Positions 12,339-13,430 of a DNA stretch of 14,868 nucleotides are shown in pieces. The notes beneath the pieces were generated by a model. That model had not been told where the DNA came from, did no database searches, and saw nothing but the letters and a program-made list of their open reading frames with translations. Location: the NCBI GenBank assembly GCA_030744095.1, contig JASLRF010000486.1:1-14868 (forward strand), in the 5' to 3' direction. The position numbers and the translations under genes were made by a program. This DNA is from Pirellulaceae bacterium (GTDB lineage: Bacteria; Planctomycetota; Planctomycetia; Pirellulales; Pirellulaceae). Within the stretch, counting starts at the first letter, position 1. Every line of letters starts with the position of its first letter.

Positions 12339-13430
12339 ATGAACCTGAGAATCATGCTGCCGATCTCTTTGTTGGCGACGCTACTGGTTCCACCCTTGTC
12401 GGCGGAAGATGATGTCGGCACACAGCTTGAGCAAATCAAGAAATCGTACGACAAGGCCTACCAAGAGTTCCTCAGTGACTATCGGGCCGAGACGGACGCA
12501 ACGAAGAAGCGCGAGATCGTCTCGACGCGGCTTCCGGCGATATCAAAGGAGTATTTAGATAAGTACCAGGAATTGGCAGACAAACACGCAAAGACCCCCG
12601 CTGCCGTTGAAGCATTGGCCATGGTCTGCCAACTCGGTGGACGCGCGCCGGGTGGTCGGGCGTTGATCGAGAAGGCAAAAGAACGATTATTGGCCGACCA
12701 TCTCAATGAAAAGGGCTTCGCAAAAGTCGTTAGCTTGTGGAGTCGCGACGACGAAATGTTGGCGAAGATCGCCAAAGAGTCGACTAGCCGTGACGTGCAA
12801 GGTCTGGCGCTTTACTTCCAAATGTCCAAAGCCAAAGGCCGACAACTGACGGAGAAGAACGTCGCCGAGGTCAAACCGATGATGAAGCGGATTACCGATG
12901 AGTTTGGTGACGTGCGAATGGTATACGCCAGTGGCAGAGATCGCGGGACGTTGGCCGAGCTCATCGATAACGAGTTGTTTGCTTTTGAAAACCTGCGGAT
13001 CGGTAAAGTCGCTCCGGAGATCACTGGCGAAGACCTCGACGGCGTGAACTTCAAACTTAGCGACTATCGTGGAAAAGTAGTCGTGATCGACTTCTGGGGC
13101 GATTGGTGACCTCCTTGTCGGGCGATGTACCCACACGAGCGGTCGCTCGTGAAGAAGCTCGCAAACGAACCTTTCGTTTTACTTGGTGTGAACAGCGATC
13201 CGAAAGAGAAAGTGCTTGCTGCCCTCGAACGGGAGAACATCACATGGCGCTCTTTCTGGGATGGCGGAAACACCTCGGGACCGATCGCGTCACGCTGGAA
13301 TGTGAGGGGTTGGCCGACCATCTATGTGTTGGATCAGAAAGGCGTAATCCGATACAAGAACGTCCGTGGTAAAGCCATGGATAAGGCTGTTGATGCGTTG
13401 CTGGCCGAAGCCAGTTCCAACGGGTCATAG
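12339..13430 (+). CDS. Exported TlpA/redoxin-like selenoprotein with in-frame TGA (Sec257)
   Basis: I read one 363-residue protein through the TGA at 13107-13109. Residues 1-22 are a signal peptide (cleavage near LSA-ED). Residues 23-220 are a mainly helical, Lys/Glu-rich region of unknown role. Residues 221-363 form a thioredoxin/TlpA-like domain: KVAPEITGEDLDG, then KVVVIDFWGDW, then U257-P-P-C260-R, then GVNSD (283-287), and the cis-proline G-W-P326-T. The first cysteine of the canonical WCxxC is exactly the TGA, while the resolving C260 is intact. The frame continues uninterrupted for 107 codons with all expected fold elements, so simple decay is unlikely. A SECIS-like hairpin follows. 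GAGG at 12327-12330 supports the start. The likely role is a thiol-disulfide or peroxide-related reductase outside the cytoplasmic membrane. A sequencing error turning TGT or TGC into TGA is the main alternative. Confidence 0.82.
13107..13109 (+). other. In-frame TGA proposed to encode selenocysteine
   Basis: The codon replaces the first active-site Cys of a thioredoxin motif, giving W256-U257-P-P-C260. Elsewhere in the window TGA acts as a normal stop (holA, glyS, menG), so wholesale recoding of TGA is ruled out and context-dependent Sec insertion is the fitting explanation. Confidence 0.8.
13134..13151 (+). promoter_or_regulatory. Candidate bacterial SECIS hairpin
   Basis: CACGAGC (13134-13140) pairs perfectly with GCTCGTG (13145-13151) around the tetraloop GGUC (13141-13144). 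There are 31 bases between the TGA and the loop. Bacterial SECIS elements, recognised by SelB, lie in the coding region just after the UGA, with the loop roughly 16-37 bases away and a G among its first two bases; all three hold. The loop sequence GGUC also occurs within the apical loop of the E. coli fdhF element. A further GCGA/TCGC pairing (13122-13125 with 13159-13162) could extend it. The bulged U of the E. coli element is not evident. Confidence 0.72.

Follow-up and report, generated by a model that had tools for sequence, protein, structure and literature searches.

A redoxin gene interrupted by an in-frame TGA

We analysed a 14,868-nucleotide stretch of DNA from a Pirellulaceae bacterium (contig JASLRF010000486.1; the whole stretch is hereafter called the window) and focused on a gene for a TlpA/ResA-like redoxin at positions 12339-13430 of the forward strand. 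The frame is open throughout, and its sole interruption is a TGA codon at 13107-13109, the predicted site of a selenocysteine (Sec, U). The features of the locus are as follows.

12339-13430, +: whole putative selenoprotein gene, 363 residues with the TGA taken as Sec, ending in TAG (reading frame; Pfam families AhpC-TSA and Redoxin when read through)
12339-12404, +: likely signal peptide, residues 1-22, ...LVPPLSA/EDD (N-terminus judged by eye)
12405-12992, +: predicted all-helical N-terminal domain, residues 23-218 (predicted structure; no Pfam match)
12993-13373, +: TlpA/ResA-like redoxin domain, residues 219-345 (Pfam, predicted structure, fold comparison)
13107-13109, +: TGA in frame as codon 257, a predicted Sec where WCxxC has its first Cys (frame, alignment to solved structures, relatives)
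13116-13118, +: TGT, Cys260, the expected resolving residue (frame translation)
13134-13151, +: hairpin of the selenocysteine insertion sequence (SECIS) type, CACGAGC-GGUC-GCUCGUG, loop at 13141-13144 (folding at -10.5 kcal/mol, conservation)
13314-13316, +: Pro326 of GWPT, by position the cis-proline of the thioredoxin fold (translation, alignment to solved structures)

The initial annotation had described a TlpA/redoxin-like frame that halts at the TGA and continues beyond it, and the same was seen when the sequence was read again. Ended at this codon, the open reading frame (ORF) at 12339-13109 encodes 256 amino acids; continued, it runs to the TAG at 13428-13430 and gives 363 residues, in which the TGA is residue 257 and is followed by Pro-Pro-Cys260. 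GVNSD and GWPT are both encoded downstream of the TGA, and thus all the elements listed for the continued frame, Cys260 and the cis-proline included, are present. The 107 further codons claimed there are 106 sense codons and the stop, not 107 sense codons, and the separate fragment of 102 residues is an ORF of 101 amino acids opened by the ATG at 13125. Elsewhere in the window TGA behaves as a stop: it is the terminator of 6 of the 11 genes and is found internally in none of the ten others.

Over residues 221-345 the read-through protein scored 78.7 bits with AhpC-TSA (cut-off 26) and 69.1 bits with Redoxin (cut-off 26.6). By itself, the upstream piece fell slightly under the AhpC-TSA cut-off (24.9 bits), and the downstream piece alone barely passed it (27.8 bits), as it did that of Thioredoxin_8 (27.8 bits, cut-off 27). 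In the solved thioredoxin-type proteins 3hdc, 3kcm and TlpA 1jfu the TGA aligns with the first Cys of WCxxC, as the initial annotation had proposed. The predicted structure has a thioredoxin-type fold as in ResA, and provided that the TGA is Sec, the equivalent of CxxC is U-P-P-C. The helical N-terminal domain forms a complete fold in the model, with a predicted local distance difference test (pLDDT) score above 90 over most of its length; the Pfam scan gave no match within residues 23-218. The matches of the fold search cover mainly residues 214-362, i.e., the redoxin part. A first structure model, built from a truncated alignment, had low confidence in the redoxin domain and was replaced by the later one.

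The stretch downstream of the TGA evolves as protein in the frame of the TGA. The ratios of non-synonymous to synonymous substitution rates (dN/dS) between the window and the related loci L001, L002 and L025 were 0.04, 0.055 and 0.13 after the TGA (103 codons); before it (38 codons) they were 0.055 for L001 and 0.085 for L025, with L002 saturated. The other two frames downstream of the TGA have dN > dS and contain stops. L003 and L004 were left out of this comparison, their codons being out of register owing to an unaligned indel (30 identical residues only). One continuous homologous protein lies on both sides of the in-frame UGA.

Recurrence of the TGA and conservation of the hairpin

The ten best homologues in the protein databases (57-100% identity) are 237-263 residues long and all end in ...DFWGDW, as do P0017, P0024, P0025, P0059, P0078, P0085 and P0115. 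The 256-residue piece of the window recurs at 100% identity as P0002, which comes from another source (lgn) and represents 7 sequences from 2 contigs, clustered at 90%, and the stop is therefore unlikely to be an error of the window record. The truncated annotation that had been foreseen does occur, in that cut-off products stand in the databases (P0005 and P0010, 'hypothetical protein', 250 or 254 residues).

Among related loci of the genome collection, W-TGA-x-x-C was found in 77 of 80, a set biased by a query alignment of mostly TGA-type sequences, among them, it appears, the cut-off proteins encoded at L001 and L002 (P0008, P0009). L046 and L064 gave no active-site match with the patterns used, and L075 matched a wider pattern. 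Since that alignment was mostly TGA-type, samples of whole phyla are less biased. With P0001 as the query and a threshold of 1e-20, matches were obtained in 82 of 246 sampled Planctomycetota genomes, of which 60 were flagged for a TGA within the match and 22 matched without one. The TGA stands at codon 257 in 59 of the 60 flagged genomes (58 by inspection of the locus, G093 through a DNA pattern); the exception, G244, has TGC at the site (locus L172) and was excluded from the TGA carriers, and the P values below were computed without it. A degenerate DNA pattern that leaves synonymous positions free and admits TGA, TGC, TGT or TGG at the Sec codon (TGN) was searched for in 392 genomes and gave 60 matches in 46 of them, each time with TGA, 59 matches having CACGAGCGGTCGCT and one CATGAGCGGTCGCT; the reversed control gave no match in the 392 genomes. 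The same pattern gave two matches, both with TGA, in one of 288 Verrucomicrobiota genomes, which implies a patchy presence there. Cys homologues exist as well (L151 and others, P0018, P0020), and hence both kinds of homologue that the initial annotation had asked for, those with Cys and those with TGA, were found.

The loci most closely related to the window are L001 and L002, which share with it 74 and 70% of the protein and 93 and 90% of glyS and keep the gene order hyp8678-glyS-redoxin; ubiE was not found in their flanks. Their genomes, G001 and G002, contain selA, selB, selD and tRNA-Sec above the cut-offs, the selD match of G001 being partial. In 31 carrier genomes, drawn from 32 of the 80 loci, selB passed in 29 and tRNA-Sec in 27. 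Over the 246 Planctomycetota genomes, uncorrected for kinship, selB was present in 56 of the 59 TGA genomes compared with 105 of the 187 others (P = 4e-9), and tRNA-Sec in 52 of 59 compared with 107 of 187 (P = 8e-6). A scan of the window for tRNA genes found none. We also observed an in-frame TGA within 10 of 14 selD matches (13 genomes searched; G002, G003, G006 and seven others).

The hairpin at 13134-13151 has a stem of 7 bp, and 1 of 200 shuffled sequences was as stable. It begins 24 nt after the TGA, and its GGUC loop follows at 31 nt. The limits for bacterial SECIS elements given in PMC13188914 are a loop of 3-9 nt, a stem of 4-16 bp, a G at loop position 1 or 2, a distance of 16-37 nt from the UGA and a minimum free energy of -7.5 or lower, and the window hairpin lies within all of them (loop of 4 nt, spacing 31 nt). 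An Rfam scan of 12900-13400 gave no match. Longer stretches around the hairpin gave modest z-scores, and the case for it therefore rests on conservation. At 110 of 110 distinct sites encoding HERSL the codons GAG, CGG and TCG are invariant, despite the six codons available for Arg and for Ser, and CAC and CTC have two exceptions apiece; the other synonym-bearing codons from +1 to +19 have a synonymous entropy of 0.45 to 2.54 bits. The exceptions keep the stem: CAT in L049 and in a later locus, L235, gives a U-G pair, and CTT in L039 gives a G-U pair twice. In L147 (1516-1560) the stem is changed on both sides from C-G to U-A, CAT facing the A of an ATG that replaces GTN, with Met for Val. When Sec-type sites were chosen by peptide, 135 of 136 had Glu-Arg, always as GAG-CGG followed by TCG. 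In contrast, DNA was read for seven Cys homologues that have Glu-Arg (P0018 and P0020 are not among them); these use GAG or GAA with CGC, CGT, CGA or CGG, never have Ser next and lack the hairpin sequence. The hairpin is thus conserved beyond what the peptide needs.

The distance from TGA to GAG is ten codons in 121 of 135 distinct hairpins; 11 stand at both seven and ten codons and one at seven and eleven. The remaining two have no TGA in reach, namely L179, at a contig edge, and a Ser paralogue, L204. The frame that contains the hairpin of L193 is either short or broken. When 21 genomes were searched loosely, with any TGA 10-40 nt upstream of the hairpin allowed, there were 79 matches compared with 24 in the reversed control, so some of the loose matches are due to chance. 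Divergent TGA homologues without the frozen hairpin sequence also occur (e.g., L171, L174, L175, L189, L190, L236, L237, L242-L246 and L248-L251) and would have to rely on other structures. Among these, L174, L175, L189, L190, L236 and L242 are redoxins with W-TGA-GPC in which different peptides follow the active site.

Predicted selenocysteine insertion and its alternatives

We hold with high confidence that this is a real selenoprotein gene. The reading we consider very probable is that UGA257 is read as Sec with the help of the hairpin. The product would be a single TlpA/ResA-like redoxin of 363 residues, likely exported, whose active site is Trp-Sec-Pro-Pro-Cys and which likely serves as an extracytoplasmic disulfide reductant. 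The single selenoprotein of 363 residues suggested at the outset is supported by the TGA in 59 of 60 flagged genomes, the Cys homologues, the conserved hairpin, the selection downstream and the selA, selB, selD and tRNA-Sec genes of the relatives. In this mechanism SelB, bound to the hairpin at 13134-13151, would deliver Sec-tRNA to the UGA, and the N-terminus, read by eye as a signal peptide, would target the protein for export through the inner membrane. Present as a selenolate at physiological pH, Sec257 would attack the disulfide of a partner protein, Cys260 would resolve the mixed selenenyl-sulfide, and a membrane reductase of the DsbD/CcdA type may re-reduce the oxidised Sec-Cys pair. 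The helical N-terminal domain may select the partner. Under selenium shortage translation would halt at the UGA and leave the helical domain only.

A single base divides TGA from TGT or TGC, which would fit a nonsense mutation or a base-calling or assembly error in a Cys gene, i.e., a pseudogene or an unreal TGA. However, the TGA is the same in the 59 genomes and in all 60 pattern matches, P0002 from another source is identical, and purifying selection downstream of the TGA contradicts a pseudogene; we rejected this explanation as extremely improbable. The UGA could also be decoded as another amino acid, through a changed code or leaky suppression, and near-cognate tRNA read-through is known to occur in bacteria. 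Yet TGA is an ordinary terminator in the window, the SECIS-type hairpin is conserved, and selB and tRNA-Sec co-occur with the TGA form, so that reassignment was likewise rejected, its probability being close to negligible.

A different proposal is that the UGA mainly terminates, yielding a 256-residue helical product alongside a downstream part translated on its own, or that UGA and hairpin form a selenium-dependent switch between two products. This would agree with the complete fold of the helical domain in the model, with the 101-amino-acid ORF that begins at ATG 13125 and with the hairpin retained without a TGA in L204. However, after such a split the redoxin domain, which is under purifying selection before as well as after the TGA, would lack its attacking residue, the Cys homologues are one continuous protein, and the Met of ATG 13125 belongs to a RAMY stretch that is also present in the Cys homologues P0018 and P0020. 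We therefore consider termination or a switch very unlikely. It is conceivable, though rather unlikely, that the protein is a selenoprotein that acts as an oxidant or isomerase, or as a peroxide reductase, instead of an extracytoplasmic disulfide reductant.

Several observations weigh against Sec insertion into an exported reductant, besides the bias of the 80-locus set. The evidence for selABCD comes from the genomes of relatives and not from that of the window; among the 59 TGA genomes, three are without selB and seven without tRNA-Sec at the thresholds used, G031 and G159 being without both (the completeness of the genomes is not stated). The longer stretches around the hairpin had z-scores of -0.2 to -1.7 and were not unusually stable, the hairpin not always being the minimum-energy form, and in L176 the outer stem pairs are lost. 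The paralogue L204 (at about 3430 in genome G777), which has a TGA-type copy nearby, retains the hairpin with W-S-L-P-S, TCA (Ser) replacing TGA. It has likely lost Sec, with the hairpin left behind, and its active site contains neither Cys nor Sec; it implies that the hairpin alone is no proof of Sec use. P0018 and P0020 carry HERSLV together with Cys, and the peptide is thus not unique to Sec forms. Finally, the export, the partner and the reducing direction are matters that we only infer.

The wider family and known selenoproteins

Both redox codons are TGA (UxxU) at ten loci in nine genomes: L194, L195 (G026), L196 (G018), L177/L201 (G094), L178/L200 (G137), L219, L220, L221, L227 and L230. 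The hairpin is identical in all ten, with GAGCGGTCGCTC after each site, and the full frames of L194, L195, L196, L200 and L201 show that the redoxin domain is complete and carries TPT or TPV. In the G028 family, which includes G026, 15 among the matches listed carry two TGAs, part of which were inspected. These relatives are likely a diselenide redoxin group, in which a diselenide could take the place of the usual disulfide. Two or three TGA-type redoxin sites per locus were observed in L004, L005, L014, L018, L022, L023, L027, L039, L044 and L053, where paralogues seem to arise in tandem. The database proteins P0029, P0035 and P0064, which start with MYPHERSLV and end in DFWGHW, look like the stretch between the two Sec codons of fused tandem redoxins.

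Selenoproteins of this fold with UxxC or UxxU are already known. PMC13188914 lists Prx-like thiol:disulfide oxidoreductases (PF00578, UxxC/UxxU) and a 'Redoxin family protein' (PF08534, UxxC, accession HEU0032618.1), Prx-like 1 and 3 selenoproteins are found in the GOS survey (PMC2398784), and UxxU in Prx-like selenoproteins was reported in both; the window gene therefore adds to a known kind. It resembles them in Pfam families, in predicted Sec replacing the first Cys and in UxxU among its relatives; its N-terminal helical domain and its near-frozen hairpin do not figure in those descriptions. What stands out here is the spread, the near-frozen SECIS and the UxxU group. Compared with ResA, TlpA and CcmG (DsbE), the protein has a predicted Sec for the first Cys and an extra helical N-terminal domain of about 195 residues, and it falls far under the NCBIfam cut-offs of ResA proper (NF002854; 63.1 versus 170 bits) and TlpA (50.4 versus 230 bits). 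Nor did it reach that of WAxxUGC_long (NF041054; 27.7 versus 300 bits), also a ResA-like selenoprotein, with its Sec, judged by the name, elsewhere in the motif. The Cys homologues P0020 (WCPPC, 332 amino acids) and P0018 (WCGPC, 605 amino acids) share the redoxin domain at 45-47% identity and have Cys instead. Our literature search found no description of the Planctomycetota family; since putative selenoproteins of two planctomycetes are reported in PMC4807772, and a UxxC redoxin family is listed in PMC13188914, we do not claim that it is absent from print.

Database entries of close relatives are cut off at the same codon. A redox enzyme carried by roughly one in four of the sampled Planctomycetota genomes (59 of 246) is thus stripped of its active site by annotation. 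With its near-invariant sequence, the hairpin offers an exact DNA signature for finding further such genes, and it is a simple case in which to test how RNA structure can dictate the sequence of a protein. Whether one near-frozen hairpin (GAG-CGG-UCG-CUC, ten codons past the UGA) runs a large redoxin family of the Planctomycetota, has reached some Verrucomicrobiota and licenses Sec in UxxC and, in nine genomes, UxxU, with HERSLV present for the RNA and not for the enzyme, is in our judgement evenly balanced.

A search of annotated phages gave no match. Elsewhere in the window, the ORF at 463-1596 on the minus strand overlaps the neighbouring ORF of a metal-dependent hydrolase (1511-2266), and its true start is probably further in.
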